Shown here one piece after another: positions 9,750 through 36,629 of a DNA stretch of 64,000 nt (the first letter of the stretch is position 1; every line of letters begins with the position of its first letter). Source of the stretch: Lautropia sp. SCN 69-89 (GTDB lineage Bacteria; Pseudomonadota; Gammaproteobacteria; Burkholderiales; Burkholderiaceae_E); assembly GCA_001724855.1 (NCBI GenBank), contig MEED01000012.1:1-64000 (forward strand). Reading direction: 5' to 3'. The notes under the pieces are model-generated. The model was not told where the DNA came from. It made no database searches and was given only the letters and a program-made list of their open reading frames with translations. Position numbers and translations under genes: made by a program.

Positions 9750-11612
9750 TCAGGCCGCGGTGTCGGGCTTCCAGATCTGCCCGATCGAGATTTTCGTGAG
9801 CTTGCGCTGGCGCCCGTACCAGAGGTTCACCAGGCCGCGCGAGAAGAACACCGCCGAGAACATCGACGTGAGCAGCCCCAGCACGTGGACGACGGCGAAC
9901 CCCCGCACCGGCCCCGAGCCGAACACCAGCAGCGCCACGCCGGCGATCAGCGAGGTGACGTTGGAGTCGAGAATCGTGGCCCAGGCGCGTTCGTAGCCGG
10001 CGGCGATCGCCGCCTGCGGCGTGGCGCCGTTGCGCAGCTCTTCGCGCACGCGCTCGTTGATCAGCACGTTGGCGTCGATCGCCATGCCGAGCGTGAGCGC
10101 GATGGCCGCGATGCCGGGCAGCGTCAGCGTGGCCTGCAGCAGCGACAGCAGCGCAATGAGGAGCAGCACGTTGACCGCCAGCGAGATCGACGAGATCACG
10201 CCGAACAGCATGTAGTACAGGCTCATGAAGATCGCGATCGCGATGAAGCCCCACAGCGTCGAGTGGAAGCCCTTGGCGATGTTCTCGGCGCCCAGGCTCG
10301 GGCCGATGGTGCGTTCCTCGATGATCTCCATCGGCGCGGCGAGCGACCCGGCGCGCAGCAGCAGCGCGGTGTCGCTGGCTTCCTGCGTGGTCATGCGGCC
10401 GGAAATCTGCACGCGCCCGCCGGCGATCTCGGAGCGGATCACCGGCGCAGTGACCACCTCGCCCTTGCCGCGCTCGATCAGCAGGATCGCCATGCGCCGC
10501 CCGATGTTCTCGCGCGTCACGTCGCGGAAGATCCGTGCGCCCTTGGCGTCGAGGTTCAGGTGAACGGCAGGCTCGTGGGTCTGCGGGTCGAAACCGGGCT
10601 GCGCGTCGTTGAGGTTCTCGCCGGTGAGGATGACCTGCTTGCGCACGAGAATCGGCTGGCCGTCGCGCTCGGTGTAGCGCTCGCAGTTGAACGGCACCGT
10701 GCCGGCTGCCAGCGCGGCGACCTCGTCGGGCGACTCGCAGACCATGCGCACCTCGAGGGTGGCGGTGCGGCCCAGGATGTCCTTCGCCTTGGCGGTGTCC
10801 TGGACGCCCGGCAACTGCACCACGACGCGGTCGAGGCCTTGTTGCTGGACGACCGGCTCGGCGACGCCGAGCTCGTTGATGCGGTTGCTCAGCGTCGTGA
10901 TGTTCTGGCGGATCGCGTTTTCCTGGATGCGCTGCGCCGCCTGCGGGCGGAAGGTGGCGACGAGCTTCAGGTCGGCCCCGTCGGTCGCCTCGACCAGCGC
11001 GAGGTCGGGTACCGTGTCGGCGATGGCCGCGCGAGCCCGCTCGCGCGTCTCGGCGTCGCGGAAGCGGATTTCGATCGCGTCGCCCGCACGGGTGATCCCC
11101 GCGTGGCGCAGGTTGCGGTCGCGCATCAGCGTGCGCAGGTCACCGGCGGTGCCGTCGATCCGCTTCGACAGCGCCTGCTTCATGTCGACCTGAAGCAGGA
11201 AGTGCACGCCGCCGCGCAGGTCCAGGCCGAGATACATCGGCAGCGCGCGCAGGCTGGTGAGCCAGTTCGGCGAATTCGACAGCAGGTTCAGCGCGACGAT
11301 CCAGCTCGGGTCGGACGGATCGGGGTTCAGCGCCTTCGCCAGCGCATCCTTCGCGCGCAGCTGCGTGTCGGTGTCGCGGAAGCGCGCCTTGACCGAGTTG
11401 CCGTCGAAGAACAGGCCGGTGTTGGCGATTCCGGCCCCGTCGAGCACCGATTCGACGCGCCCGAGCATCGAAGGCTCGACCTTCAGCGTCGCCTTGCCGC
11501 TCGACACCTGGACGGCCGGGGCCTCGCCAAAGAAGTTCGGCAGCGTGTACAGCAGGCCAAAGACCAGCGCCATCGCGATGATCGCGTACTTCCAGACCGG
11601 ATAACGATTCAT
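9750..11612 (-). CDS. secD: Protein translocase subunit SecD
   Basis: 620 aa. It begins MNRYPVWKYAIIAMALVFGL, has the periplasmic signature YLGLDLRGGVHFLLQVDM, and a C-terminal membrane half with IAALALTLGMAIDANVLINE-like content (here TLGMAIDANVLINERVREEL). With SecF and YajC it drives late steps of Sec export from the periplasmic side. Length is that of E. coli SecD (615 aa). Confidence 0.97.
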   Translation of the reverse strand: MNRYPVWKYAIIAMALVFGLLYTLPNFFGEAPAVQVSSGKATLKVEPSMLGRVESVLDGAGIANTGLFFDGNSVKARFRDTDTQLRAKDALAKALNPDPSDPSWIVALNLLSNSPNWLTSLRALPMYLGLDLRGGVHFLLQVDMKQALSKRIDGTAGDLRTLMRDRNLRHAGITRAGDAIEIRFRDAETRERARAAIADTVPDLALVEATDGADLKLVATFRPQAAQRIQENAIRQNITTLSNRINELGVAEPVVQQQGLDRVVVQLPGVQDTAKAKDILGRTATLEVRMVCESPDEVAALAAGTVPFNCERYTERDGQPILVRKQVILTGENLNDAQPGFDPQTHEPAVHLNLDAKGARIFRDVTRENIGRRMAILLIERGKGEVVTAPVIRSEIAGGRVQISGRMTTQEASDTALLLRAGSLAAPMEIIEERTIGPSLGAENIAKGFHSTLWGFIAIAIFMSLYYMLFGVISSISLAVNVLLLIALLSLLQATLTLPGIAAIALTLGMAIDANVLINERVREELRNGATPQAAIAAGYERAWATILDSNVTSLIAGVALLVFGSGPVRGFAVVHVLGLLTSMFSAVFFSRGLVNLWYGRQRKLTKISIGQIWKPDTAA

Positions 11613-11659
11613 TCGGCTGCCTGGTTGGGGCGCCCTCGGGCCCGCACGGATTGCCCTGC

Positions 11660-12007
11660 TCAGATCGCCTTGATCGTGCCGTTCGGCAGCAGCGTCTGCA
11701 CCGCGGCCTTCTGGAACGTCATCTCGATCGCCGAATCGCCGCTCTTCGAGTCGGGGGCGCGCGCGACCTCGATCGTGACGTAGCCTTCGGCGACCTTCGT
11801 GATCCGCCCGACCAGGCCGCCCGAGGTGACGACCTCGTCGCCCTTCTTCAGCGCCTCGAGCATCGTCTTGTGCTCCTTGGCGCGCTTCATCTGCGGGCGG
11901 ATCATCAGGAAGTACAGCACGACGAACATCAGGATGATCGGCAGGAAGCCGATGATCTGCTGCTCGGTGCCGCCCGCGGCCTGGGCGTATGCGCTGGAAA
12001 TGAACAC
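11660..12007 (-). CDS. yajC: Sec translocon accessory protein YajC
   Basis: 115 aa from GTG 12005-12007. It has a single membrane helix (IIGFLPIILMFVVLYFLMIR) followed by the hallmark PQMKRAKEHKTMLEALKKGD and the YajC domain (EVVTSGGLVGRITKV). GTG is chosen because GGGAGG sits seven bases upstream and the N-terminus MFISSAYAQA is typical of the family. It is first in its own transcription unit with secD, secF and the cytochrome b gene. Confidence 0.96.
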   Translation of the reverse strand: MFISSAYAQAAGGTEQQIIGFLPIILMFVVLYFLMIRPQMKRAKEHKTMLEALKKGDEVVTSGGLVGRITKVAEGYVTIEVARAPDSKSGDSAIEMTFQKAAVQTLLPNGTIKAI

Positions 12008-12267: not shown

Positions 12268-14488
<2,221 letters not shown>

Positions 14489-18278: not shown

Positions 18279-18422
18279 GTCTTGTCCTTTCGACCTTGTA
18301 CATGAGCCGATCGCTCACGCACGATGAACGCTCGACCCCGGGCGGCGGTTGACGGCCGACGCCGGGAAGGCGCGGCGTCGGTCGCCAAAGCGCCGGGGGT
18401 GGACTGCTAAGCTTCGCGAACC

Positions 18423-20132
18423 ATGGCGTTCGTCAACAACCTGCTGCTGATCGGGTCGCTGCTGATGTTCGCCGGCATCATGCTGGGCGCCTTCTCGTCG
18501 CGGCTGGGGGTGCCGTTCCTGCTGGTGTTCCTGGTGGTCGGCATGCTGGCCGGCGAGGGTGGCATCGGCGGCATCCGGTACGACGACTACGGTACGGCCT
18601 TCTTCGTCGGCAACCTGGCGCTGGCGATCATCCTGCTCGACGGCGGGCTGCGCACCAAGCTCAGCACTTTCCGGGTGGCGCTGCGCCCGTCGCTCGTGCT
18701 GGCGACGGTCGGGGTGGCGCTGACCGCGCTGGCGGTCGGCCTGTTCGCCGCCTGGGTGCTGGCGATCGACTGGCGGCTCGGGCTGCTGCTCGGGGCGATC
18801 GTCGGGTCGACCGACGCCGCGGCGGTGTTCGCGATGCTGAAGTCGAGCGGCACGCGGCTGAACGAACGGGTGGCCAACACGCTCGAGATCGAGTCCGGCG
18901 TCAACGACCCGATGGCGATCGCGCTGGTCACGGTCCTGATCGAGCTGCTGACGTCCGTCGGTGAAGCGAGGGGGCTCGCGATGGTGGGCGAACTCGCGCT
19001 GCAGTTCGGCCTGGGTACCGTCCTGGGCATCGGCCTCGGGCGCGCATTGGCCTGGGCGATGCAGCGCGCGTCGCTCGGCGAGGGCCTGGGGGCGCTGTTG
19101 TTGTGCTCGGGGGGCGTGGCCGCGTTCGCCCTGGTCAACGCGCTGGGCGGCAGCGGCTTCATCGCGGTCTACCTGGTCGGATTGGTCGTGGGCAACCGCA
19201 CGCGTCGCGCCGGGGAGAACCTGCTGCGTGCGATGGACGGCATGGCTTGGCTGGCGCAGTCGAGCATGTTCCTGCTGCTCGGCTTGCTGGTTTCACCCGG
19301 CGCGATTCCTGGCATCCTGCCGGCGGCACTGGCGATTTCGGCGTTCCTGATGTTGGTGGCACGTCCGGCCGCGGTCTGGGCGTGCCTGCTGCCATTCCGC
19401 TTCGCCGCCCGCGAGGTGGCGTTCATCGGCTGGATGGGCCTGCGCGGCGCGGTACCGATCGTGTTGGCGATGTTCCCGATGCTCGCCGGGGTGCCGGGCT
19501 CGGGGACGCTGTTCAACGTGGCATTCGTGGTCGTGCTGGCGTCGCTGCTGTTCCAGGGTGCATCGGTTGCGTTTGCGGCGCGGCGATTCGGGGTGGACCT
19601 GCCGCCGCGCGACGAGCCGGTCGTGCGGCCGACGCTGTCCGACGACAGGCTGGCGGTCGTCGAGTTTCCGGTCGGCGAGCGTGCGCCGCTGCTCGGCGTG
19701 ATGCTGCGCACGCTGCTCCTGCCCGAAGGGGTCGCCGTGCTGGCGGTGGTCCGCGGCGGCGAGCCGCTGGATCAGGATGCAGCCGGCGCATTGCGGCAGG
19801 GCGACGTCGTGATGCTGCTCGCCCCCGACCAGCGGGTCGACCACCTGTCCGAGATGTTTGCGCGGGTCGACGTCGCGTTGCGGCGCAAGTACTACGGTGA
19901 CTTCGTGCTGGAGGGCGGTGCCTCGTTCGCCGACGTTTGCGCCGCCTACGGGTACGAGCCACCCGCCGAACTGGCCGGGATGACACTCGACGAGGCGATG
20001 CGCAGGCGCGCGCCGCGCATCGTCGAGGGCGATGCCGTGCAGATCTCGCGCTTGCTGCTGGTGGCCCGCGAGGTGACCGGGGGCCGGGTCGTCAAGGTCG
20101 GCCTGAAGCTGGAGCGCGCGCCGGGCCGCTGA
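18423..20132 (+). CDS. nhaP2: Potassium/proton antiporter, CPA1 family with TrkA-C domain (NhaP2/CvrA type)
   Basis: 569 aa. About 12 membrane helices fill the first 400 residues, with the family motifs LLLGAIVGSTDAAAVFAML and IESGVNDPMAIALV. A TrkA-C domain (RLAVVEFPVGERAPLLGVML) and a C-terminal CorC/HlyC-like transporter-associated domain (about residues 490-565) follow. It exports K+ (or Na+) in exchange for protons at the inner membrane, and the cytoplasmic domains probably sense ions or nucleotides. Single-gene unit downstream of the divergent 83-aa gene. Confidence 0.92.
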   Translation: MAFVNNLLLIGSLLMFAGIMLGAFSSRLGVPFLLVFLVVGMLAGEGGIGGIRYDDYGTAFFVGNLALAIILLDGGLRTKLSTFRVALRPSLVLATVGVALTALAVGLFAAWVLAIDWRLGLLLGAIVGSTDAAAVFAMLKSSGTRLNERVANTLEIESGVNDPMAIALVTVLIELLTSVGEARGLAMVGELALQFGLGTVLGIGLGRALAWAMQRASLGEGLGALLLCSGGVAAFALVNALGGSGFIAVYLVGLVVGNRTRRAGENLLRAMDGMAWLAQSSMFLLLGLLVSPGAIPGILPAALAISAFLMLVARPAAVWACLLPFRFAAREVAFIGWMGLRGAVPIVLAMFPMLAGVPGSGTLFNVAFVVVLASLLFQGASVAFAARRFGVDLPPRDEPVVRPTLSDDRLAVVEFPVGERAPLLGVMLRTLLLPEGVAVLAVVRGGEPLDQDAAGALRQGDVVMLLAPDQRVDHLSEMFARVDVALRRKYYGDFVLEGGASFADVCAAYGYEPPAELAGMTLDEAMRRRAPRIVEGDAVQISRLLLVAREVTGGRVVKVGLKLERAPGR

Positions 20133-24182: not shown

Positions 24183-24506
24183 TCAGCAGTCGCAGGCAAC
24201 GGCCGCTGCATCGAGGCACGGCGTGCCTTGGCAGCAATGTGCGGTCAGGTAGGTGAGCAGGTCGTTCATCCGCTCGAATGCCGCGCGGTAGATCAGGTGC
24301 CTGCCGCTGCGCTCCTGCGTAACCAGGCCAGCGTGTGCCAACTCCTTCAGGTGGAACGACAGGGTGGCTGGCGGCACTTCGAGCGACTCCGCGATCGCGC
24401 CGGGGGTCAGGCCTTCGGGGCCGGCGACGACCAGCGAACGGAAGACCTGCAGCCGCGACGACTGCGCGAGCGCGCCAAGCGCTTTCACTGCGTCCTGATG
24501 TTCCAT
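24183..24506 (-). CDS. arsR: Arsenic-responsive repressor, ArsR/SmtB family
   Basis: 107 aa. Winged-helix core: ALAQSSRLQVFRSLVVAG, then VPPATLSFHLKELAHAGLVT and GRHLIYRAAF. The C-terminal end has a Cys cluster (HCCQGTPCLD and VACDC), the likely arsenite-sensing thiols. ATG 24506 fits the family N-terminus (MEHQDAVKALGALA); an alternative ATG at 24521 would overlap the arsJ stop as ATGA. It lies mid-operon, after arsJ, rather than first. Confidence 0.93.
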   Translation of the reverse strand: MEHQDAVKALGALAQSSRLQVFRSLVVAGPEGLTPGAIAESLEVPPATLSFHLKELAHAGLVTQERSGRHLIYRAAFERMNDLLTYLTAHCCQGTPCLDAAAVACDC

Positions 24507-24517
24507 GCCCGTAGTCC

Positions 24518-25786
24518 TCATGGGGAAGTGAAGTGCCGCGAAGCGACGAGCGTCTGGACGACGGCGCGCTCGGGTAGCGCCAGGGTGACCAGCCAGCACG
24601 CCACCAGCATCGCGGCCGAGCCGCACAACGCATAGAGCAGGCCGCCCGACTGGTACAGCAGCCCCGACATCAGGGTGCCGAAGAAGCGGCCCAGCGCGTT
24701 GGCGGCGTAGTAGAAGCCGACGTCCTCGGCGGCCTTCTCGGAGCCTGCATAGGCGAGGACCAGGTACGAGTGGACCGACGAATTGACCGCGAAGGCGAAG
24801 CCGAACACGCCCAGGCCGAGCACGACCACCCACTCGAGATGCGGGGCGTCGAGTGCGACCGCGACGGCCAGCCCGATGGGCACCAGTGCCAGCGCCGCCG
24901 ACCACCCGCGCGCCGCCGGCACCTCGCGGCTCAGGCCGTCGTCGCTGCGACGCACGATCGACGGCGCCAGCGCCTGCACCAGGCCATACCCGATCGTCCA
25001 CAGCGCGAGGAAGCCGCCGACCATCGTGAAGGTCCAGCCCGATGCGTACAGGAACACCGGCACGCCGACCACGAACCACACGTCGCGGGCGCCGAACAGC
25101 GCCACGCGCGCAGCGGCCAGCAGGTTGATGCCGCGGTTCTTCGCGAACAGCTCGCGCACCGACTTGGAGGCACTGCTCTTGCCCATCAACGGCGGCACGA
25201 ATCCGACGACTCCCGCGAACACCAGCGCGAGCAGCCCGGCCATCGTCCACAGCGCCCCCTGGAATCCGAGCCGGTCGAGCAGCAGCCCGCCGAGAAAGAA
25301 CCCCACGCCCTTCATCGCGTTCTTGCTGCCGGTGAACCAGGCCACCCACTTGAACAGCGTGCCCGACGCGTCGCCGGCGGTCAGCTTGATCGCCGACTTG
25401 CTCGCGGTCTTCGTCAGGTCCTTGGCGACGCCGCAGACACCCTGAGCCAGAACCACCCAGGCGACCGACAGCGCCGCTGACCACTGCGGCGAGAGCATCG
25501 ACAAAAGCAGGAACCCGCCGATCTGCGTCGCCAGGCCCACGGTCAGCATCCGCGCGATGCCGAAGCGGGTCGCCAACCAGCCGCCGACCAGGTTCGCGAG
25601 CACGCCCGCCGCCTCGTACAGCAGGAACAGGAAGGCCAGCGTGAAGGGCGAGTAGCCGAGCCGGTAGAAGTGCAGCAGCACCAGCATCCGTAGCGCGCCG
25701 TCGGTGAGCGTGAAGCCCCAGTACGCGGCGGTGACGATCGCGTAGTTGCGCGCCGCGTGCGGTGCCGGCTGCGAGGGGCCGCTCAC
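24518..25786 (-). CDS. arsJ: Organoarsenical (1-arseno-3-phosphoglycerate) efflux MFS transporter ArsJ
   Basis: 422 aa with about 12 membrane helices. It reads [20 protein letters not shown] near the start and [19 protein letters not shown], typical of the ArsJ group of the major facilitator superfamily. Starts at GTG 25784-25786, overlapping the GAPDH stop by 4 bp (GTGA). In known systems GAPDH makes 1-arseno-3-phosphoglycerate from arsenate and ArsJ exports it; the linkage here supports that role. Confidence 0.93.
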
Positions 25787-26826
25787 GAGCCGCGTGCCTG
25801 CATGTGGCAGGCCAGGTCGACCATCCGGCACGAGTAGCCCATCTCGTTGTCGTACCAGGCGTAGACCTTCAGCAGCGTGCCGTCGGTCACCATCGTCGAC
25901 AACGCGTCGACGATCGAGCTGCGCGTGTCGCGGGCGTAGTCGGCGCTGACCAGTGGTCGCTCCTCGTAGCCCAGGATGCCGGCCAGCGGCCCGCGCGCGG
26001 CGTCGGCGAACAGGCGGTTGACCTCTTCGGGTGTCGTCGCGCGCTGCAATTCGAACACGCAGTCGGTCAGCGACGCATTGAGCACCGGCGCGCGCACCGC
26101 GTGGCCGTCGAGCTTGCCTTTGAGCTCGGGATAGATCAGCGCGATCGCGGTGGCGCTGCCCGTGGTCGTCGGCGCAAGGCTCAGCAGCGCGCTGCGCGCG
26201 CGGCGCAGGTCCTTGTGCGGTGCGTCGACCACCAGGTTGGTGTTGGTCGGATCGTGGATCGTCGTGATCTGGCCGTGCCGGATGCCGATGGCTTCGTGCA
26301 CGACCTTGACCACCGGCGCGAGGCAGTTGGTGGTGCACGAGGCCGCCGTGACGATGCGGTGGCGCGCGGGGTCGTACAACTCGTGGTTCACGCCGACGAC
26401 GACGTTGAGGACGTCGCCGACCTTGACCGGCGCGGCGACGATGACGCGCTTCGCCCCTCGATCGAGGTGGCCCTGCAGCGTCTCGGGCGTGAGGAACTTG
26501 CCGGTGCATTCGAGCACGACGTCGATCCCCAGTTTGCCCCAGGGAATGTCGGCAGGCGACGCGTGCGCCGAGAAGGACAGCCGCCGGTCGCCGATGCGGA
26601 TCGCGTCGTCGCCCTCGGCGGCGATGTCGGCGCGCCAGCGCCCCTGCACGCTGTCGAAGGCGAGCAGGTGCGCGGTCGCCGCGGTGCCGCCCTTGATTTC
26701 GTTGACGTGGACGACGTCGAGGCGATTGAAGGCGCGCGGGTCGTCGGCGGGCCGCTCGGCGGCGCCAAAGGCAGCCCGCAAGGCCAGCCGGCCGATGCGG
26801 CCCATGCCGTTGATGCCTGCTTTCAT
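25783..26826 (-). CDS. ArsJ-associated glyceraldehyde-3-phosphate dehydrogenase
   Basis: 347 aa. Rossmann motif [18 protein letters not shown] at residues 4-21, catalytic Cys in [20 protein letters not shown] (C164), and the C-terminal [17 protein letters not shown]. As first gene of an ars operon and translationally coupled to arsJ it is the arsenate-using GAPDH, forming 1-arseno-3-phosphoglycerate, not necessarily the glycolytic enzyme. Confidence 0.94.
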
Positions 26827-26961: not shown

Positions 26962-27447
26962 TTATTCGGGCCGGGGCGAGTCTGCCGCTCTGGCTGTCAC
27001 GGGCGACTTGCGCGCCGCCGACTTGCGTGGGGCGGCAGGCGACTTCCGTGCCGAACGCTTGCGCGGGGCCGGGGCCGCGCCGGCGCCTCCAACGGCACCA
27101 GCGGCACCAGTGGCACCAGCGGAGGCGCCCGCGGCGCCCGCGGCCGAGGCGCGGCGATCCGCGCTCGTCGCAGCGCGCTCGAAATCGGCGGCGTCGACGT
27201 CGGCCAGCGCGTGCTCCCGGGCCTCGGCCCACAGGTCTCCGACGCGCTCGCGCGCCTGCGCGGCCAGCAGCGTCGCCTGTTCGAGGCCGCGCGCCGCCTC
27301 GCGCGCCACCCGTTGCGCTGCGCGCCGCAGCGCCTCGGGGTCGCGCGACACCGCGACGCCGGCGGCGAAGCCGAACAGCGCGGTGGCGGCAAGTCCGGCA
27401 ACGCCGACGGCCAGCAGTCCGGGCAGGGCAAGGTCTTCGATCTTCAT
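26962..27447 (-). CDS. Small membrane protein with histone-like basic C-terminus, coupled to P-type ATPases
   Basis: 161 aa, not recognised. An N-terminal hydrophobic hairpin (LALPGLLAVGVAGLAATALF, residues 6-25, then FAAGVAV) is followed by a charged helix (about 33-75), an Ala/Gly-rich low-complexity stretch, and a tail with repeated RKS/KSP motifs (APRKRSARKSPAAPRKSAAR). The ATG overlaps the stop of the preceding pseudo-ATPase gene (ATGA). It resembles small membrane-anchored proteins seen beside similar ATPases; function unknown. Confidence 0.75.
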   Translation of the reverse strand: MKIEDLALPGLLAVGVAGLAATALFGFAAGVAVSRDPEALRRAAQRVAREAARGLEQATLLAAQARERVGDLWAEAREHALADVDAADFERAATSADRRASAAGAAGASAGATGAAGAVGGAGAAPAPRKRSARKSPAAPRKSAARKSPVTARAADSPRPE

Positions 27448-29558
27448 GCGAATTCACTCCTGGATTGGTTTCGCGCGGACGCCTTCGGGCGGCCGCGGGT
27501 GGTCGTCGATGGGCGGGCCGCGGCCGCCGGGCGCTTCTTGGGCGCGTCGATGCGCTCGACTCGAAGGCTGTCGAGCAGCAGCAGCAGTGCGAAGCCGTGG
27601 TGCAGCAACGCAGTGCCGATCGGCGGCAGCCAGCGCAGCGCTGCCGCGGTCATCAATGCCGAATTCGCGACTACCGCCGCGCCCTGATGCAGGCGCAGTC
27701 GCCGATGCACGCCCTGAGCGGCGCGGCGCGCCGCTACCAGGCTCGCCAACGGATCGCCGAGCAGCACGCCGTGCGAGCCCGCGTCGGCGTCCATCGGGCA
27801 CAGGCTGAGGCTGCCCGGCGGCACCAGGTCGCGCAGCACCGTGTGGATGACCACGACCGGCGTGCCGTCGCTGACTGCCGCGGCGAGGCAGTCGATGCGC
27901 GCGCCAGCGTCGTCGGAAATGTACTCGCGCCGATCGCTGCCGCACCAGGCGTCCTCGGCCGGCGGCACGTCGCGCCCGCTGCCGTCGTCCTCGGCGAACA
28001 GTACGATGCGCTCGACGCCGAGCGCCGACAGTTCGTCGATCCGCGTGAGCGCTCCGGGCCTGAGCGCGCTAGCGAGCACCACGCGCGCGACGACCCGACC
28101 CGCTGCCACGACCGCGAGTTCGCGGCGCAGGGCGTCGGCGCGGGTCGGCGGTGGCCCGCCGTCGAGCGTCCAGCCCCAGATCTCCTTCAGCCGCCGGCGG
28201 CTCGCGAGGTGCAGATCGTGTTCTCCGACCCGCAGCAGCGCCCCGTGCCGTACCCACTGGCGCACCAGGCGATCGGGGAAGTTGGCCACGTCGAGCACCT
28301 CGAGCGGCGTGTCGGCCAGCGCCGCGAGCCAGCGGCGCACTTGCCCGGGATCGCCGCCCGGTTCGGTGCGCACCGATTCGATGGTCCAGCGCCCGCTGGC
28401 CATGACGCCGGTGTCCTGCACCACGAACATGCGCGCGCTGGCCAGGCGCTCGATGGCTTCGAGCCCGGACGTGAGCAGCCCGCGGCGTGCGAGCGAGTAG
28501 AGCGCAGCCTCGCGTGCCACCGGCAGCGCGAGGTCGAGTCCCTGGCTCGGATTGGCCTGCAGCATCGCCGCCGCGCGCGCGGTGTCGCCGGTCAGGCCGA
28601 ACACCAGCGCCGCGGCCGTGAGCGGCAGCGGCAAAAGACGTTCGAAGCCCGGAGCGAGCCGCCCGGTCGGGTCGCGCGAACCGATCGCATGTCGTACCTG
28701 GGCGCGCATGCGCTCGAGGCGTGACGACCCCGCGTCGGCTTCGGCGCGCAGTTCGATCATGCCCGTCATCAGGCGCTCGCCCGCTGCGACGTGCGAGCCG
28801 GCGCGCGCGTCGCGCGTATCGTCCGGATGCGCAGCACCGGCCAGCATCGCGTCGCCGGCGACGACGCAGCCGTCGACCGGCACGACGTCGCCGGCCTCCA
28901 GGCGGATCCGGTCGCCCGCGCGCAACGCGCGAAGCGTGGTACGGACCTCCCCTTGCGGATCGTCGGACTCGCGGACGACCCGATAGTGCGACGCCTCGGT
29001 CGGCAGCAGGCGATCGAGCAGGCCGTCGGCCTGGTTGACCAGCCGCACCGACAGGCGCTCGGACAGCCAGCGAAGCAGCACCGACGTCGAGACGACCAGC
29101 GGCTGCCCGCTGACTGCCAGTGCGGCGAGCGACACGGCATCGAGCAGCACGGCGGCAGGATCGTCACGCAAGCGCGCAGGCTGCGCAACCGCCCGCGTCG
29201 CGATCGCGCCGAGCGCGGCGCCCTGGCGCCACGCTCGCGGAAGCAGTGGAACCGACGCGGCGAACAGCAGCGGGACGATCGCCAGCGTCTCGCCGCCGGC
29301 CGCGGCTGTCATGGGTCTGGCGCGCCAAACGACCGGTGCCGTTGCGGCGCGGCCCGCGAGCGTGTCCAGCAGCGCGGCCCGCGTGCCGGGTGCGCCATCG
29401 TGCCGGATCGCGACGCTGCGCACGGCCGCGTTGACGCGCACCGACCGAACGCCGGGCAACGCGGCGAGGCGCGCGCGCACGCCGTCGAGCGCGACGTCGG
29501 CCTCGACGCCGGCGCGAAGCCGGTGGGTCGTCTCGTGAAGGATGCGGGCTGCGGTCAC
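27444..29558 (-). CDS. Degenerate P-type ATPase (pseudo-ATPase) with N-terminal HMA-like domain
   Basis: 704 aa from GTG 29556-29558, overlapping the upstream ATPase stop (GTGA). Residues 1-65 look like a heavy-metal-associated fold (ILHETTHRLRAGV, LAALPGVRSVRVNAAVRSVA). The actuator region is recognisable (RAGDRIRLEAGDVVPVDGCV), but the expected LTGES is LAGAA (about 239-243), the membrane CPC-type motif is NPSQG (336-340), and the phosphorylation motif DKTGT is QDTGV (381-385). The GDGxND motif is also gone. It cannot be a normal pump; a regulatory or structural partner of the intact ATPase is likely. No stop or frameshift interrupts it. Confidence 0.85.
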   Translation of the reverse strand: MTAARILHETTHRLRAGVEADVALDGVRARLAALPGVRSVRVNAAVRSVAIRHDGAPGTRAALLDTLAGRAATAPVVWRARPMTAAAGGETLAIVPLLFAASVPLLPRAWRQGAALGAIATRAVAQPARLRDDPAAVLLDAVSLAALAVSGQPLVVSTSVLLRWLSERLSVRLVNQADGLLDRLLPTEASHYRVVRESDDPQGEVRTTLRALRAGDRIRLEAGDVVPVDGCVVAGDAMLAGAAHPDDTRDARAGSHVAAGERLMTGMIELRAEADAGSSRLERMRAQVRHAIGSRDPTGRLAPGFERLLPLPLTAAALVFGLTGDTARAAAMLQANPSQGLDLALPVAREAALYSLARRGLLTSGLEAIERLASARMFVVQDTGVMASGRWTIESVRTEPGGDPGQVRRWLAALADTPLEVLDVANFPDRLVRQWVRHGALLRVGEHDLHLASRRRLKEIWGWTLDGGPPPTRADALRRELAVVAAGRVVARVVLASALRPGALTRIDELSALGVERIVLFAEDDGSGRDVPPAEDAWCGSDRREYISDDAGARIDCLAAAVSDGTPVVVIHTVLRDLVPPGSLSLCPMDADAGSHGVLLGDPLASLVAARRAAQGVHRRLRLHQGAAVVANSALMTAAALRWLPPIGTALLHHGFALLLLLDSLRVERIDAPKKRPAAAARPSTTTRGRPKASARNQSRSEFA

Positions 29559-32500
29559 GCGCCGCGCTCCTTGAGCAGTTCGCGCGCGGCCAGCGGCACG
29601 GCGGCGGTGGCCAGCACCACCAGCGCGTCGACCGGGCCGAGCGGCGTGGTGCGCAGCACGCGGCGCGCCAACGGCAGCAACACGGTGCCGGCCTGCGCCG
29701 CCAGCGACCAGCCGACCGCGCGACGCAGCGCCGGGTTCGGCGCCAGGCCGCCGGCACGCAGGGGCAGCGACGAGCGCATCGCCAGCGCGAACAGCAGCTG
29801 CGACGAGGTCAGCGTCGTGAATGCCATCGTCCGTGCGCGCGGGCCCGCGCCGTAGCGCGCCAGCCCGTAGCCGAAGCTGGCCAGCGACGCCAGCGTCATC
29901 GTGCCGGCGTCGGTGGCTACGGCGGTCCACTCGCTGCGGTCGAGCAGCCCGCCGCGCAGCGACACCGGCGGGCGCTCGAGGATGCCGGGTTCGGCGGGCT
30001 CGAGGCCGAGCGCGATCGCCGGCCAGATGTCGGTGGCGATGTTGGTCCACAGCAGCGCGAGCGGGTCGAACGGTTCGGGCAGTCCGATTGCGGTGGCGAC
30101 GGTGGTGGCCGCGAGCTCGCTCAGGTTGGTCGACACCAGGTAGCGCACCGATTTCCTGACGTTGACGAACGCGGTGCGTCCCTGCTCGATGGCGGTGAGC
30201 ATCGCCGCCGGGTGGTCGTCGTGCAGCACCAGGTCGGACATCGCGTGGGCGAAGTCGGTGCCGGTGACGCCCATCGCCACACCGACGTCGGCGGTCTTCA
30301 GCGCCGGGCCGTCGTTGATGCCGTCGCCGGTCATGGCGACCACGTGACCGCGCTGCTGCAGTGCGCGCACGATCTCGAGTTTCATCGCAGGGCTGGTGCG
30401 CGCGAAGCCGTTGGCGGACTCGACTGCATCGCCGATCAGCTCGGCCGACTCGGGCAGTTGCGCGGCGTCGAGCAGCGGTCGCTCGCCGTTCAGCCCGATC
30501 CGCTCGGCCACCGCCCGGGCGGTGCCGACCTGGTCGCCGGTGATCATCATCGGGCGAATGCCCGCCGCGCGGAAACGCTGCACCATCTGCGGCAGGTCGG
30601 GGCGCAGCGGGTCGGCCAACCCGACCATGCCGAGCCAGCACAGGCCCGCGGTGTCGCCGAAGCTGCGATCCGGGTGCTGGCGGAAGGCCAGCGCGAGCAC
30701 GCGCTCGCCGCGCGCGGCCATCGACTCGTCGAGCTTCAGCAACCGGCGCCGCAGCGCCGGCTTCAACGGCTGCGCGCGCCGGCCGTCGAACCAGGTCTCG
30801 CAGCGCGCCAGCACTTCGTCGGGCCGGCCCTTGACCGCGACCAGCAGGCCGCTGTGCGCCGAGTCGTGCAGCGTGACCATGTAGGGATGATGCTCGGAGC
30901 GGTGACGCACACCGAGCAGCGGGTGGCTGCGGTGCAGCTGGTCGTAGTCCGCGCCCTGCGCGAGTGCGAACTCGAGCAGCGCGATCTCGGTCGACGAGCC
31001 CTGCCACGGACTTGCGGCACCACCGCCGGCGCGCTCGACGCTGTTGCACAGCACGGCCACGCGCTGCCAGGCCTCGGGAACCGCAGGCGCCCGCTGGCCC
31101 TCTTCGAGCACGACGAGGTCGGTGCCGACGGTCAGCGACCCGACGCTCATCCGGTTCTGCGTCAGCGTGCCGGTCTTGTCGAAGCAGACCGTGTCGACCG
31201 CGCCGAGGCTCTCGATCGCGTCGAGCCGGCGCGCGTAGACCCCGCGCCGCTGCAGCGAGCGTACGCTGGACGCCAGCAGGCTGGTCGCGACCGTCGGCAA
31301 TCCTTCCGGGATCGCCGCGACCCCCAGCGACACCGCGGTGCGCAGCAGCGGCAGCAACGGCCGGCCACGCAGCGCGCCGAGCGCGAACACGCCGACGCAG
31401 GCCGCGGCCGCGCCAATGGCCAGGCGGCGGCCGAGCACGTCGAGTTCCTGCTGCAGCCGGGTCGTCGGCGCCTCGGTGCCCTGCGCGAGCTGCCGGATGC
31501 GGCCCAGCGCGGCGTGCTCGGCGGTGGCCACGACGACGGCGCGGCCTGCGCCGCCCGACACCACGGTGCCGAGGAACACCATGTTGCGGCGTTCGCCCAG
31601 CGGCGTGTCTTCGGGCAGCGATGGCACTGGCTCCTTGCGCACCGGCAGGCTCTCGCCGGTGAGTGCCGCCTCGTTGGCAGCGAGCCGGTGCGACTCGACG
31701 ACGCGCGCGTCGGCGGCGACCGGATGGCCCGGCTCGAGCACCAGCACGTCGCCGACGACCACCTCGCGTGCGTCGATCGTCACGACCGCGCCATCGCGCA
31801 GCACGCTGGCCTGGCGCGGCCCGAGCTTGCGCAGGCTGGACACCGTCTCCTCGGCCTGCCGCTCGGTGAGGAAGCCCAGTGTCGCGTTGGCGGCGAGCAC
31901 CGCACCGATGGCTCCGGCGTCGGCGAACGCGCGCGTGGACAGCGCGAGCGCGCCGGAGCCGCCGAGCAGCGCCACCGGCACCGAGCGGAACTGCCCGACG
32001 AGGATCTCGGCGGCGCTGCGCCCGGTGACGTCGCGGATCTCGTTCGGGCCGTCGCGCTCGAGGCGCGCGCGGGCGTCGGCGGTAGACAAGCCTCGCGCGA
32101 GATCGATTGGATTGCCGCCACCCAGGTCGGCGAGCAGCCGGTCGACTGGCACCGAGTGCTGTCCGGTCGTCTCGGCTTCGGCGGCTTCGGCATGGCGCTG
32201 GGCAGGACCCGCTCGCGACCTGCGCGCTGCGGCGTCCCTGGGGTGCCGCGTCGGGCTGGAAGGCGGCGTCGCGCCTGCACCGCGTCTGGCGACCGCGGTG
32301 CGCGGCTGGCTCCGGACGACAGTCGAAAGCCAGTCGATCCAGTACACGGTGTCGCGATCGGGCGCGAGCCGGATTCGCACCGAGCCGGTGTCGAGCTGCA
32401 CCTGGAGCGCGTCCCCTGCCGCGTCGGCCAGCCGACAGCCCAGTGCCGGGTTCCGAAGCAGTCCTCGCACCCGCACGCGTGCCCAGCGCCCGTTGCGGGA

Positions 32501-32572
32501 CGTGACGACGACGTTGGGCACCTCGACGGACATGGGCGTCGACAGGATACGCCCGCCACGTGACGGATTCAC
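29555..32572 (-). CDS. P2-type cation-transporting ATPase
   Basis: 1005 aa from GTG 32572 (ATG 32533 is an alternative). A short HMA-like N-terminus and an Ala/Arg-rich linker (about 85-140) precede a full P-type core: TGES (305-308), AAIPEGLPTVA in M4 (419-429), FDKTGTLTQNRM (464-475), GDGINDGPALK (749-759). M6 reads LLWTNIATDIWPAIALGLEP. Glu in M4 plus Asn and Asp in M6 match the Ca2+-ATPase site II pattern, so Ca2+ or Mn2+ is a reasonable substrate guess. Followed by the degenerate ATPase in the same operon. Confidence 0.92.
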   Translation of the reverse strand: MNPSRGGRILSTPMSVEVPNVVVTSRNGRWARVRVRGLLRNPALGCRLADAAGDALQVQLDTGSVRIRLAPDRDTVYWIDWLSTVVRSQPRTAVARRGAGATPPSSPTRHPRDAAARRSRAGPAQRHAEAAEAETTGQHSVPVDRLLADLGGGNPIDLARGLSTADARARLERDGPNEIRDVTGRSAAEILVGQFRSVPVALLGGSGALALSTRAFADAGAIGAVLAANATLGFLTERQAEETVSSLRKLGPRQASVLRDGAVVTIDAREVVVGDVLVLEPGHPVAADARVVESHRLAANEAALTGESLPVRKEPVPSLPEDTPLGERRNMVFLGTVVSGGAGRAVVVATAEHAALGRIRQLAQGTEAPTTRLQQELDVLGRRLAIGAAAACVGVFALGALRGRPLLPLLRTAVSLGVAAIPEGLPTVATSLLASSVRSLQRRGVYARRLDAIESLGAVDTVCFDKTGTLTQNRMSVGSLTVGTDLVVLEEGQRAPAVPEAWQRVAVLCNSVERAGGGAASPWQGSSTEIALLEFALAQGADYDQLHRSHPLLGVRHRSEHHPYMVTLHDSAHSGLLVAVKGRPDEVLARCETWFDGRRAQPLKPALRRRLLKLDESMAARGERVLALAFRQHPDRSFGDTAGLCWLGMVGLADPLRPDLPQMVQRFRAAGIRPMMITGDQVGTARAVAERIGLNGERPLLDAAQLPESAELIGDAVESANGFARTSPAMKLEIVRALQQRGHVVAMTGDGINDGPALKTADVGVAMGVTGTDFAHAMSDLVLHDDHPAAMLTAIEQGRTAFVNVRKSVRYLVSTNLSELAATTVATAIGLPEPFDPLALLWTNIATDIWPAIALGLEPAEPGILERPPVSLRGGLLDRSEWTAVATDAGTMTLASLASFGYGLARYGAGPRARTMAFTTLTSSQLLFALAMRSSLPLRAGGLAPNPALRRAVGWSLAAQAGTVLLPLARRVLRTTPLGPVDALVVLATAAVPLAARELLKERGA

Positions 32573-32739: not shown

Positions 32740-33735
32740 ATGAAATTCACCCAAACGCTCCTGGCTGGCCTGCTCTCCGCGGGCTTCGCCGCATCGGCGA
32801 TGGCCCAGGCCAAGCTGGTCAAGATCGACGGCTCGAGCACCGTGTTCCCGGTGACCGAGGCGGTCGCCGAAGATTTCCAGAAGGCGCAGAAGGGCGCCGT
32901 CAACGTCACCGTCGGCATCTCCGGCACCGGTGGCGGCTTCAAGAAGTTCTGCCGCGCCGAAACCGACGTGCAGAACGCCTCGCGCCCGATCCTGGCCAAG
33001 GAAATGGCCGACTGCAAGGCGGCGGGTGTCGAGTACGTCGAACTGCCGGTCGCGTTCGACGCGCTGACCGTGGTCATCAATCCGAAGAACACGTTCATCA
33101 AGAGCCTGTCGGTCGACGAGCTCAAGAAAATGTGGGAGCCGGCAGCGCAAGGCAAGGTCTCGAAGTGGAAAGACGTGAACCCGGCCTGGCCGGATACGCC
33201 GCTGACGCTCTTCGGCGCCGGCGCGGACTCCGGGACGTTCGACTACTTCACCGAGGCGATCGTCGGCAAGTCCAAGTCCAGCCGCGGCGACTTCACGGCG
33301 TCGGAGGACGACAACGTGCTGGTCCAGGGCGTCTCGCGAGACGTCAACGCGCTCGGCTTCTTCGGCTACGCCTACTATGCGGAGAACCAGGACAAGCTGA
33401 AGGCCGTGCCGATCGTCGCCAAGGCCGGCAGCCCCGCGGTGCTGCCGTCGATGGAATCGGTGCTCAAGGGTTCGTACCAGCCGCTGTCGCGCCCGATCTT
33501 CATCTACGTCAATGCGAAGTCGCTCGACAAGCCCGAGGTCAAGGCCTTCGTCGACTACTACATGATGCATGGGTCGAAACTCGCGCGCGAGGTCAAGTAC
33601 GTCCCGTTGCCCGACCAGGCCTACAAGGCCGGCCTCGAGCACGTCAAGAGCCGGCGCAAGGGCACGGTCTTCGGTGGGGTCGCCGAGGTCGGCGTGACCA
33701 TCGAGGAGCTGATGAAGCGCGAGGCTTCGCTGTAA
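32740..33735 (+). CDS. pstS: Phosphate ABC transporter substrate-binding protein
   Basis: 331 aa. Signal peptide MKFTQTLLAGLLSAGFAASA, then the phosphate-binding motifs KIDGSSTVFPVTEAVAEDF and GISGTGGGFKKFCRAETD, and GADSGTFDYFTEAIVG. Periplasmic receptor for inorganic phosphate feeding PstCAB. AGAGGA precedes the ATG. This is the shorter SphX-like PstS form without the long N-terminal linker. First gene of pstSCAB-phoU. Confidence 0.95.
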   Translation: MKFTQTLLAGLLSAGFAASAMAQAKLVKIDGSSTVFPVTEAVAEDFQKAQKGAVNVTVGISGTGGGFKKFCRAETDVQNASRPILAKEMADCKAAGVEYVELPVAFDALTVVINPKNTFIKSLSVDELKKMWEPAAQGKVSKWKDVNPAWPDTPLTLFGAGADSGTFDYFTEAIVGKSKSSRGDFTASEDDNVLVQGVSRDVNALGFFGYAYYAENQDKLKAVPIVAKAGSPAVLPSMESVLKGSYQPLSRPIFIYVNAKSLDKPEVKAFVDYYMMHGSKLAREVKYVPLPDQAYKAGLEHVKSRRKGTVFGGVAEVGVTIEELMKREASL

Positions 33736-33752
33736 CGCGAAGGAACATCCGC

Positions 33753-33818
33753 CCGGACGGCCGAGAAGGCCGGCCGGAGCGGGACCCGGCGAGGGCACGC
33801 GACCAGAGGTCGCGTGCC
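33753..33818 (+). other. Two tandem RNA hairpins in the pstS-pstC gap
   Basis: Hairpin 1 (33753-33777): CCGGACGGCC/GGCCGGCCGG with loop GAGAA and one mismatch. Hairpin 2 (33794-33818): a perfect 11-bp stem GGCACGCGACC/GGTCGCGTGCC with loop AGA. No U-tract follows. Such structures after the binding-protein gene commonly protect the 5' message and lower expression of the downstream permease genes. Confidence 0.6.
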
Positions 33819-33842
33819 TGTTGACGTTAGAAGGGGCCAACG

Positions 33843-34820
33843 ATGGCGAACTCCCTGAGTGCTGAGCTCGGCTCCGGCGAGAGAACCGGCACGGCGAGCT
33901 CCGATGCGAGCCTGAGGCGGCGGCGCGACTTGAGGCGAAAGCGCAGCCGCCTGATCCGCGAGCGGTCGATCGAGGCGGTCCTCTTCTTCGCGGCTTCGGT
34001 TTCGGTGCTCACGACTGCCGGCATCGTCTGGGTGCTGGTCAGCGAGTCGTTCGAGTTCTTCCGACACGTGTCGTTGTGGGATTTCCTGACCGACACGCAG
34101 TGGACGCCGCTCTTCGACGACGCCCACTTCGGCATCATGGTCCTGCTGTCGGGAACGCTGACCAGTTCACTGGTGGCCCTCGCGGTGGCGATACCGCTGG
34201 GCACGACGATCGCGATCTATCTGTCCGAGTTTGCGTCGCACCGGGTTCGCGAGGTTGCCAAGCCGCTGCTGGAACTCCTCGGCGGCGTGCCGACGATCAT
34301 CTACGGGTACTTTGCGCTGCTGTTCCTCACGCCGCTTCTGCAGTTGCTCATCCCATCGCTGCCCGGGTTCAGCCTGCTGTCGGCAGGTCTGGTGATGGGC
34401 GTGATGATCATTCCCTACGTCAGCTCGATCAGCGAGGACGCGATGCGGGCGGTGCCGATGTCGCTGCGCGAGGGCGCCTACGCGATGGGCTCGACGCGGC
34501 TGCAGACCGCCACGCGAGTGGTGGTGCCGGCGGCGTTCTCCGGCATCGCCGCCGCCTACATCCTGGGCATCTCGCGCGCGGTCGGCGAGACGATGATTCT
34601 CGCGGTGGCCGCCGGGATGCAACCCAACCTGACGATGAATCCGCTCGAGCCAGCCGCCACGATCACCGCCTACATCGTGCAGGTGGCGCTCGGCGACCTG
34701 CCGCACGGCTCGATCGGCTACCAGACGATCTTTGCCGCGGGCCTGACGCTGATGCTGATGACGCTGGCCTTCAACGTGATCGGCTTCTGGCTGCGACGCC
34801 GCTTCCGCGAAGTCTACTGA
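33843..34820 (+). CDS. pstC: Phosphate ABC transporter permease PstC
   Basis: 325 aa. After a basic cytoplasmic N-terminus (about 40 residues rich in Arg) come six membrane helices, with the ABC permease EAA-type loop PMSLREGAYAMGSTRLQTAT and the ISRAVGETMILAVAAGM segment. Forms the inner-membrane channel with PstA. AAGGGG lies just before the ATG. Confidence 0.95.
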   Translation: MANSLSAELGSGERTGTASSDASLRRRRDLRRKRSRLIRERSIEAVLFFAASVSVLTTAGIVWVLVSESFEFFRHVSLWDFLTDTQWTPLFDDAHFGIMVLLSGTLTSSLVALAVAIPLGTTIAIYLSEFASHRVREVAKPLLELLGGVPTIIYGYFALLFLTPLLQLLIPSLPGFSLLSAGLVMGVMIIPYVSSISEDAMRAVPMSLREGAYAMGSTRLQTATRVVVPAAFSGIAAAYILGISRAVGETMILAVAAGMQPNLTMNPLEPAATITAYIVQVALGDLPHGSIGYQTIFAAGLTLMLMTLAFNVIGFWLRRRFREVY

Positions 34821-34840
34821 ACGGCCACGAGGACTCACGC

Positions 34841-35764
34841 ATGGACCAGCAAGACATCATCCGCATCCGCGGGGTCATCGCGGCGGGCAAGCGCAAGGAC
34901 GTGATTTTCGCGGCCCTCGGGGTGCTCGCGCTATGCATCGGCGTGATGACCTTTCTCACGCTGTTCATCGACATGGCGATCGACGGCGTCGGGCGCCTGT
35001 CGCTCGACTTCTTCACGAACTTTCCGTCGCGGCGCGCGGGCCAGGCCGGCATCCTCTCGGCGTGGGTCGGCTCGACGCTGGTCATGCTGGTGACCGCTTC
35101 CATTGCGGTGCCGCTGGGCGTGGCCGCAGGCATCTACCTCGAGGAGTACGCGAAGAAGCACTGGTTCAACGACCTGATCGAGATCAATATCTCCAATCTC
35201 GCCGGCGTGCCGTCGATCGTCTATGGCTTGCTCGCGCTCGGTCTGTTCGTGTACCAGTTCGGCCTGGGCCAGAGCGTCGTCACCGCAGGAATGACTCTGG
35301 CGCTGCTGATCCTGCCGGTCGTCATCGTCGCGACCCGTGAGGCGATCAGGGCGATCCCGGGGATCATCCGGGAGGGCGCGTACGCGCTCGGCGCGTCGAA
35401 GTGGCAGACCGTGTCGGATCACATCCTGCCGTACTCGATGCCGGGCATCCTTACTGGCGTCATCATCGGCCTGGCCCGCGCGATCGGCGAGACCGCGCCA
35501 GTGATCACGATCGGGGCGTTGACCTTCATTGCCTTCCTTCCGCCTGCGCCGGTATCGGCGGCGCCACCGTTCGTGAACTTCGACTGGCTCACGTCGTCGT
35601 TCACCGTCATGCCGATCCAGATGTTCAACTGGACGTCGCGGCCCGAGGCAGCTTTTCACCAGAACGCCGCGGCGGCTGGTTTCGTGCTGGTGCTGATGAC
35701 GCTCGGCATGAACGCGCTGGCGATCTGGCTGCGTTACCGGCTGCGCCGGAACATCAAGTGGTGA
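34841..35764 (+). CDS. pstA: Phosphate ABC transporter permease PstA
   Basis: 307 aa from ATG 34841 (MDQQDIIRIRGVIAAGKRKD). Six helices, with the EAA-type loop IPGIIREGAYALGASKWQTV and IIGLARAIGETAPVITIGAL. Starts 20 bp after pstC and pairs with it. Confidence 0.95.
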   Translation: MDQQDIIRIRGVIAAGKRKDVIFAALGVLALCIGVMTFLTLFIDMAIDGVGRLSLDFFTNFPSRRAGQAGILSAWVGSTLVMLVTASIAVPLGVAAGIYLEEYAKKHWFNDLIEINISNLAGVPSIVYGLLALGLFVYQFGLGQSVVTAGMTLALLILPVVIVATREAIRAIPGIIREGAYALGASKWQTVSDHILPYSMPGILTGVIIGLARAIGETAPVITIGALTFIAFLPPAPVSAAPPFVNFDWLTSSFTVMPIQMFNWTSRPEAAFHQNAAAAGFVLVLMTLGMNALAIWLRYRLRRNIKW

Positions 35765-35822
35765 ACATCGGGCGCACGAAGCGAACTGTCGTGCACCGCG
35801 AGCATTCTGACAGGACATCGAG

Positions 35823-36629
35823 ATGGCAGCTGTACTGAACGTCGGCGCACCGACCCCGGCCGAGCAGCTGGTCGCCAAGGCGCGCACCAGCGATCTGAAT
35901 TTCTACTACGGCTCGTTCCAGGCGCTGAAGAACATCAACCTGCCGGTCTACGAGGACAGGGTGACCGCGCTGATCGGACCTTCGGGTTGCGGCAAGTCGA
36001 CGCTGCTTCGCGCATTCAATCGCATGCACGACCTGTATCCGGGCAACCGCTACGAAGGCGAGATCCGCCTGTATCCGGAGGACGTCGACCTGCTGTCTCC
36101 CGAGGTCGATCCGATCGAGGTCCGGATGCGCATCGGCATGGTCTTCCAGAAACCGAACCCGTTCCCGAAGTCGATCTTCGAGAACGTCGCCTACGGGTTG
36201 CGAGTGCGCGGCGAGAAGAACCGCACCGTGCTGGCCGACAAGGTCGAGGCGGCGCTCAAGGGGGCCGCGCTGTGGAACGAGGTCAACAAGCGCCTGGACG
36301 AGTTGGCGGTCAATCTGTCGGGCGGCCAGCAGCAGCGCCTTTGCATCGCGCGCGCGCTAGCGACAGACCCGGAGATCGTCCTGTTCGACGAACCCACTTC
36401 GGCGCTGGACCCGATCGCGACCGCGTCGATCGAGGAACTGATCCACGAGCTGAAGAGTCGGGTCACGATCCTGATCGTGACGCACAACATGCAGCAGGCG
36501 GCGCGCGTGTCGGATTTCACCGCGTACATGTACCTCGGTGAGATGATCGAGTTCGGCGAGACCAAGGACATCTTCATCAAGCCGAAGAACAAGCGCACCG
36601 AGGATTACATCACCGGCCGCTTCGGCTGA
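35823..36629 (+). CDS. pstB: Phosphate ABC transporter ATP-binding protein
   Basis: 268 aa. Walker [21 protein letters not shown] (about residue 50), ABC signature [20 protein letters not shown] (about 165) and Walker [13 protein letters not shown]. Energises phosphate uptake and contributes to PhoR signalling through PhoU. Confidence 0.97.

Follow-up and report, generated by a model that had tools for sequence, protein, structure and literature searches.

Can a P-type ATPase that has lost its catalytic motifs be kept as the partner of an active pump? The question is raised by three genes on contig MEED01000012.1 of Lautropia sp. SCN 69-89, within a stretch of 64,000 nucleotides (positions 1 to 64,000) that was analyzed as a whole and is called the window here. 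The genes lie head to tail on the minus strand in the order pump, dead ATPase, small membrane protein:

29555..32572, minus strand: P2A-type cation ATPase; catalytic motifs all intact; 1,005 aa from GTG
27444..29558, minus strand: catalytically dead P1B-like ATPase; 704 aa; GTGA overlap with the pump gene
26962..27447, minus strand: small membrane protein, weakly DUF5132-like; 161 aa; ATGA overlap with the dead ATPase gene

Coordinates, strand, lengths, and the 4-bp overlaps agreed with an earlier note on this DNA; the pump/dead-gene junction reads GCGTGACC (GTGA), and the dead-gene/third-gene junction reads GCATGAAG (ATGA). The second protein is a relative of P1B ATPases that has lost catalysis, is under purifying selection in related bacteria, and stays linked to the pump. 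We consider it rather probable (about 0.57) that it is a non-catalytic membrane subunit of a multi-subunit divalent-cation pump encoded by the trio.

Loss of catalytic motifs in the second protein

The first gene had been credited with every P-type motif, and the pump indeed carries LTGES, PEGLP, CFDKTGTLT, and MTGDGINDGPAL. The motif sites of the two proteins are as follows:

31166..31180, minus strand: phosphorylation motif DKTGT, residues 465-469 of the pump, intact
31295..31309, minus strand: M4 ion-binding motif PEGLP, residues 422-426 of the pump
29349..29558, minus strand: N-terminal HMA/HMA_2-like domain, residues 1-70 of the dead ATPase
28539..28556, minus strand: M4 motif ANPSQG of the dead ATPase, which replaces D[YF][SA]C[AG][LIV]K of intact relatives; A[DN]P[QSK][QK]G in 9/9 copies
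28404..28418, minus strand: QDTGV replacing DKTGT; QD[TS]GV in 9/9 aligned copies
27828..27845, minus strand: HTVLRD replacing GDGxND; H[TC]VLRD in 8/8 copies reaching the site

Alignment of the dead protein to intact relatives upheld three readings of the earlier note, namely, QDTGV for DKTGT (D to Q, K to D, T and G kept, T to V), NPSQG in the transport helix, and the absence of GDGxND, whose column reads HTVLRD. In M4, the D-Y-A-C-A-L-K of intact HMA_2-type P1B ATPases has become N-P-S-Q-G-L-D, and the P1B metal motif of this helix (CPC and variants) is likewise absent from all nine copies. FAED stands in place of TGD. For the claim that LAGAA replaces LTGES, the loss of TGE stood but the exact site did not: the TGE column reads HPDDT, a few residues past LAGAA, and the former TGE site is not conserved in the orthologues. 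The catalytic Asp is Gln in all nine aligned dead copies; TGE and TGD are missing from all nine and GDGxND from all eight that reach its site. In one alignment to intact relatives, the HP of the N domain was absent and the N domain shortened.

A hidden phosphorylation motif elsewhere in the second gene was considered and rejected: a search of the whole protein found no DKTG, GDGxND, or TGE, and the single TGD that occurs, at residue 323, is located between M3 and M4, off the motif site. An intact phosphorylation motif at another position, which the earlier note had named as a finding that would overturn its view, is thus not present, and its verdict of a catalytically dead second gene holds, with DKTGT, TGE, TGD, and GDGxND all lost. 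That the protein is an unusual but active ATPase working through another residue is very improbable. In its favor are D382, one residue past the former catalytic site, and D577, the retained final Asp of GDGxND; however, with all four motifs lost and the N domain shortened in the alignment, the protein lacks several steps of the cycle simultaneously.

Relationship of the dead protein to P1B ATPases

Pfam recognized an E1-E2 ATPase domain in the dead protein (PF00122, E = 1.5e-11) and, below threshold, an HMA domain. The protein matched CopA in phmmer (E = 2e-7), and hhalign aligned it over 648 columns with intact P1B ATPases that have an HMA_2-like N terminus (E = 5e-35). The best foreign match among 41 genomes came from the same HMA_2-type subgroup, and the P1B domain layout (HMA, extra N-terminal helices, and A, P, and N domains) is present. 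Judged by its best full-length matches, the dead protein appears to be related to P1B ATPases and most closely to the subgroup with an HMA_2-like N terminus. Members of this subgroup share full-length homology with it but possess DKTGT, whereas the dead protein has no catalytic motifs and a different M4. All ten sequences that we assigned to the subgroup (L039, L040, L077, and L199-L205) have DKTGT, including all seven found among 378 genomes of the phylum at E ≤ 1e-188. In this and the other genome samples, two or three first-look candidates were scored per genome, so that at least 7/378 genomes carry a member; the intact subgroup looks uncommon, and a viral-contig scan with it gave two loci. 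We know of no characterized member of a P1B subgroup with D[YF][SA]C[AG][LIV]K in M4. Profile-profile comparison of the dead N terminus with HMA_2 (PF19991) gave E = 1.5e-5 and a probability of 80% over 58 columns.

An AlphaFold2 model of the dead protein from a deepened alignment reached a pLDDT of 76 and a pTM of 0.74. Its best Foldseek matches were P1B ATPases (4umw, E = 1e-24, TM-score 0.43-0.49; 7r0g, TM-score 0.55-0.59), and KdpB chains were also among the matches. Fold similarity to P1B ATPases is partly built in, since 38 of the 46 alignment rows were other P-type sequences, taken in part from a generic P1B viral-contig scan (67 loci); a model from the nine dead copies alone was poor (pLDDT 51). 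A tree of 49 rows grouped the nine dead copies together (SH-aLRT 100), with a stem length of 3.13 changes per column, and placed them outside a fully supported group of 30 ordinary P1B rows, at an unresolved node with ten HMA_2-type P1B rows. Because of the long stem and an odd composition, which the program flagged, the exact place of the dead group is unsettled, and its link to the HMA_2-type subgroup comes from the best full-length matches and not from the tree.

Linkage of the dead gene to the pump gene

When genome_contigs was scanned with a segment from the C-terminal part of the pump, 62 loci were obtained, 13 of which (L116-L128) hold close pump orthologues. These stem from Rubrivivax, Polaromonas, Hydrogenophaga, Rhodoferax, other Burkholderiales, and one betaproteobacterial metagenome-assembled genome (MAG). 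Directly downstream of the pump gene, all 12 loci that continue past the pump have the dead gene, the beginning of it, or what is left of it; in the remaining one (L123), the contig ends inside the pump gene. A search for the same gene pair in relatives, as the earlier note had proposed, gave a set of 13 betaproteobacterial loci with the pump, and linkage in 12/12 of those that continue past it. The dead gene was full length in seven loci (L116, L118, L119, L120, L121, L124, and L127) and cut by the contig end in three (L125, L126, and L122, the last with only the first few dozen residues). Of eight loci examined, seven have a dead-gene start that overlaps the pump stop, by 4 bp in all but one, where the overlap is 1 bp. 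The third gene was present in all nine loci reaching its site, counting a fused copy in L117. In the 13 loci, tblastn (E ≤ 1e-20, >120 bits, flanks of ≤10 kb) detected no other gene from window positions 14-46 kb, and the lack of flanking genes shared with the window suggests that the trio moved or was kept as a unit.

The dead family seems to be rare: in the order sample, its profile matched at least 2 of 399 genomes at E ≤ 1e-40, one of them the own genome. The class sample (369 genomes including the own one) gave at least three foreign matches at E ≤ 1e-16, and all three obtained had DKTGT. Peptide patterns of the dead protein itself found no close relatives in genome_contigs, and plasmid records contained no match covering 80% of the protein, none at 60% identity, and none by DNA.

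Selection on the dead gene

The earlier note had argued that the second gene is maintained because its frame is open for 704 codons. The argument did not hold: at a G+C content of 74%, the window contains 20 stop-to-stop frames of ≥700 codons, and the frame of the dead gene continues open through the pump gene for 1,932 codons in all, so that an open frame is no evidence for maintenance. Maintenance itself was borne out by the ratio of nonsynonymous to synonymous substitution rates (dN/dS) in orthologues, computed by the Nei-Gojobori method (NG86) from nine copies of the dead gene (the window, the seven full-length loci, and L126) and ten of the pump gene taken as stop-to-stop frames. Median dN/dS was 0.35 for the dead gene (range, 0.21-0.53; 36 pairs) and 0.21 for the pump gene (range, 0.16-0.37; 45 pairs); in the closest pair, L119/L124, the values were 0.21 and 0.22. 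With a median far below 1, neutral evolution of the degenerate gene is not borne out, and the dead gene is under purifying selection in related bacteria.

Given these values, we rejected a decaying pseudogene, open by chance in G+C-rich DNA, as hardly credible. Long chance frames are common here, the copy in L117 is broken, L128 has broken frames, and the C-terminal tail has a dN/dS of 0.80; against this stand the median over 36 pairs, a closest pair on a par with the pump gene, and replaced motifs that are invariant or nearly so across genera.

Along the protein, dN/dS (seven copies) was lowest in M3-M4 (residues 286-375; 0.10) and M5-M6 (residues 601-670; 0.14), which indicates that helices M3-M6 are what selection guards most. 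The ratio was 0.22 in the N domain, 0.29 in the A domain, 0.33 in the first helices (residues 71-185), 0.34-0.37 in the P domain, and 0.41 in the HMA domain; the C-terminal tail was nearly neutral. Such conservation of M3-M6, together with polar residues inside M4, would suit a dead ATPase that acts alone as an ATP-independent ion channel, carrier, or sensor, with the conserved P1B-derived membrane domain (M4 ADPQQGLDLA) as its pore and an operon shared with the pump only through the same ion. MgtE, a Mg2+ transporter family, often adjoins the locus and would also fit. This alternative is serious but unlikely in our judgment, since a bare channel would not need its A and N domains, which are constrained too, and since the pump is adjacent in 12/12 loci without a shared flank with the window.

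We give still less credit to a membrane chaperone or assembly factor that would serve pump insertion or stability from outside the working enzyme. Such a role would agree with the stop/start overlap at the junction and with a whole domain layout conserved without catalysis, but constraint centers on M3-M6 and not on the soluble domains, and to our knowledge no full P-type fold serves as a chaperone. The pseudogene and the cryptic ATPase rank far behind both of these alternatives.

The pump and its putative ion

Orthologues favor ATG 32533 (Met14) over GTG 32572 as the start of the pump gene, and ATG 32533 is the likely start. The best solved-structure matches of the pump were the Ca2+ pumps LMCA1 (E = 1e-119) and SPCA. 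In the alignment, SERCA residues N768, E771, N796, T799, and D800 correspond to pump residues N816, E819, N844, T847, and D848, and E423 sits within the PEGL motif of M4; in SERCA, these positions serve as ion ligands. The likeness to P2A Ca2+ ATPases (LMCA1, SPCA, and SERCA) thus lies in the sequence match and the SERCA-type ligand positions; the pump here differs in its N-terminal extension, its dead partner gene, and scores below the curated NCBIfam cutoffs (499 of 798 bits for the PMR1 type and 415 of 703 bits for the SERCA type). Because of this shortfall, we left the ion undecided.

A CBS-MgtE Mg2+ transporter gene was the divergent neighbor in six of the 13 loci (L116, L117, L118, L119, L121, and L122), 109-234 bases away. 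None was found in L120 or L125-L128 within the available flank, and L123 has too little upstream sequence. Among the other 49 pump loci, the sole case was L136 (Nitrosomonas), where MgtE lies at 13426-14334 beside HMA_2 and DUF5132 genes. The MgtE neighbor and the SERCA-type ligand residues suggest a divalent cation, which may be Ca2+, Mg2+, or Mn2+, with no choice made among the three.

Two side observations concern the MgtE gene. In L124, MgtE fragments lie ∼11 kb apart on opposite strands (18390-18705 and near the pump start), which suggests rearrangement of this neighbor; in L121, 2524-2568 holds a tandem repeat with the unit TGTGCCCCC, flanked by the MgtE gene on one side and the conserved portion of the pump gene on the other.

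Related pumps with small HMA_2 and DUF5132 proteins

The nearest context found for the trio was that of P2A pumps of the same subgroup accompanied by small HMA_2 and DUF5132 proteins, in Microvirga, Trinickia, Nitrosomonas, Chloroflexus, and others. These pumps are related to the one studied here (∼40-47% identity), but none of the 49 loci contained a dead P1B relative by profile (a weak match in L175 was an ordinary ATPase with DKTGT), and the small genes frequently lie on the opposite strand. A small HMA_2-type protein occurred in at least 22 of the 49 loci and a DUF5132-type protein in at least 19; both counts are lower bounds, as they come from BLAST with one Microvirga query each and include some short contigs. 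Pfam confirmed selected members at E ≤ 1 (HMA_2, 15/15; DUF5132, 12/12). A separate HMA_2 gene was not detected in the 13 orthologous loci (BLAST, one Microvirga query), nor did any HMA_2 match exceed the cutoff in the own and five orthologue genomes, a search that was equally negative in 14/14 control genomes. The third protein of the trio matched DUF5132 (PF17195) in profile-profile comparison with E = 3e-5 and a probability of 73% over 33 columns. Since HMA_2 and DUF5132 proteins accompany related pumps that have no dead homologue, and no separate HMA_2 gene is found here, the dead ATPase may occupy the slot of the small HMA_2 protein.

A candidate heteromeric P-type pump

In the reading that we prefer, that of a multi-subunit divalent-cation pump, the first protein, a P2A-type ATPase with ligand residues like those of Ca2+ pumps, would be the motor. 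The second, a P1B relative that has lost phosphorylation, dephosphorylation, and ATP handling, would bind the motor through its membrane helices or its HMA-like domain and would tune, load, or stabilize it, and the small third protein would complete the set. The reading builds on homology, motif loss, purifying selection, constant linkage, and one group in the tree; we infer a physical complex, the ion, the direction of transport, and the effect of the dead subunit on the pump. Should the dead protein prove to be a subunit, P-type ATPases would build heteromers out of their own fold, and the clusters of P2A pump, HMA_2, and DUF5132 genes would become candidate multi-subunit pumps; the role of accessory proteins for the pump, and the ion concerned, become testable questions.

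A bolder form of the same idea can be entertained only tentatively. The P2A motor might drive a complex with a pseudo-P1B subunit whose P1B-derived membrane domain (M4 ADPQQGLDLA) provides a second, ATP-independent ion site or a path that senses or hands over the divalent ion, functionally tied to MgtE-mediated Mg2+ traffic. If true, two different P-type subclasses would be combined in a single P-type pump, one of them as a pseudoenzyme.

The earlier note had proposed the dead subunit as a partner of the pump. Death, maintenance, and the tie to the pump agree with this (12/12 loci, conserved replacements, dN/dS), but several observations weigh against it. All 13 orthologous loci come from MAGs. 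In L117 (Polaromonas MAG, 10678-11783), the dead gene is frameshifted near its start while the pump is intact, and an internal deletion joins the end of the A domain, with the reading frame kept, to the central part of the third gene. If this is no assembly error, the dead subunit can be dispensed with at least in L117. In L128, frames are broken in both the dead gene and the pump gene, which may stem from sequencing error. Frequent disruption in relatives, which the note had listed as evidence that would count against it, was therefore seen only in part: copies were mostly full length or cut by contig ends, and those in L117 and L128 were broken. MgtE was absent from the 64-kb window, and a query limited to its 97-aa N-terminal piece found no match elsewhere in the own genome. 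The argument for the HMA_2 slot depends on weak profile similarity: Pfam HMA_2 matched none of the nine dead copies, the third protein had no Pfam DUF5132 match, and HMA_2 was not recognized in the N-terminal extension of the pump by Pfam or profiles. A resemblance to HMA_2 seen there by eye found no support in the profile comparisons.

Comparison with known systems

The earlier note had likened the layout to mycobacterial CtpI-type ATPases, with a degenerate half fused to an active one. The mycobacterial ATPases CtpH and CtpI (FUPA 24) are described as having twice the usual length, with their functional motifs located in the C-terminal part (PMC3573892), and as isolated in the P-type tree and not characterized (PMC10654040); another paper involves CtpH in Ca2+ pumping and calls the ions moved by CtpI not characterized (PMC9180918). 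By these descriptions, CtpH and CtpI are single double-length chains with the active part last, whereas here there are two genes with the active one first. CtpI-like sequences were not found in three actinobacterial plasmid records.

KdpFABC resembles the proposed complex in that a P-type ATPase works within a multi-subunit assembly; its other subunits are not known to be relatives of P-type ATPases. Pseudoenzymes are familiar from kinases and further enzyme families. Among the literature matches listed, in a search that depends on wording, we found no P-type ATPase pseudoenzyme acting as the partner of an active pump; likewise, titles and abstract beginnings of the matches listed for MgtE and P-type ATPases held nothing on such an arrangement, and no paper in the library searched named DUF5132.

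Neighboring genes and further observations

Rfam had no riboswitch match in seven of the 13 orthologous loci or in window positions 18000-40000. Downstream of the trio, the minus strand (24183-26826) encodes a glyceraldehyde-3-phosphate dehydrogenase (GAPDH; 25783-26826), a frame with a major facilitator superfamily (MFS) domain (24518-26509), and a frame with an ArsR-type helix-turn-helix (24183-25484), a set that resembles a GAPDH/ArsJ arsenate-export operon. Divergently upstream, the plus strand (32740-36629) carries genes for a solute-binding protein (32740-33735), an ABC permease (33843-34820), and an ABC ATPase (35823-36629), presumably a pst-like set.

The own genome gave 13 matches to the E1-E2 ATPase domain. 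One P1-type ATPase, on another contig of the genome (C7, 3119-5052; L044), is split over two overlapping frames of 320 and 407 codons and is, for that reason, either frameshifted or misassembled.

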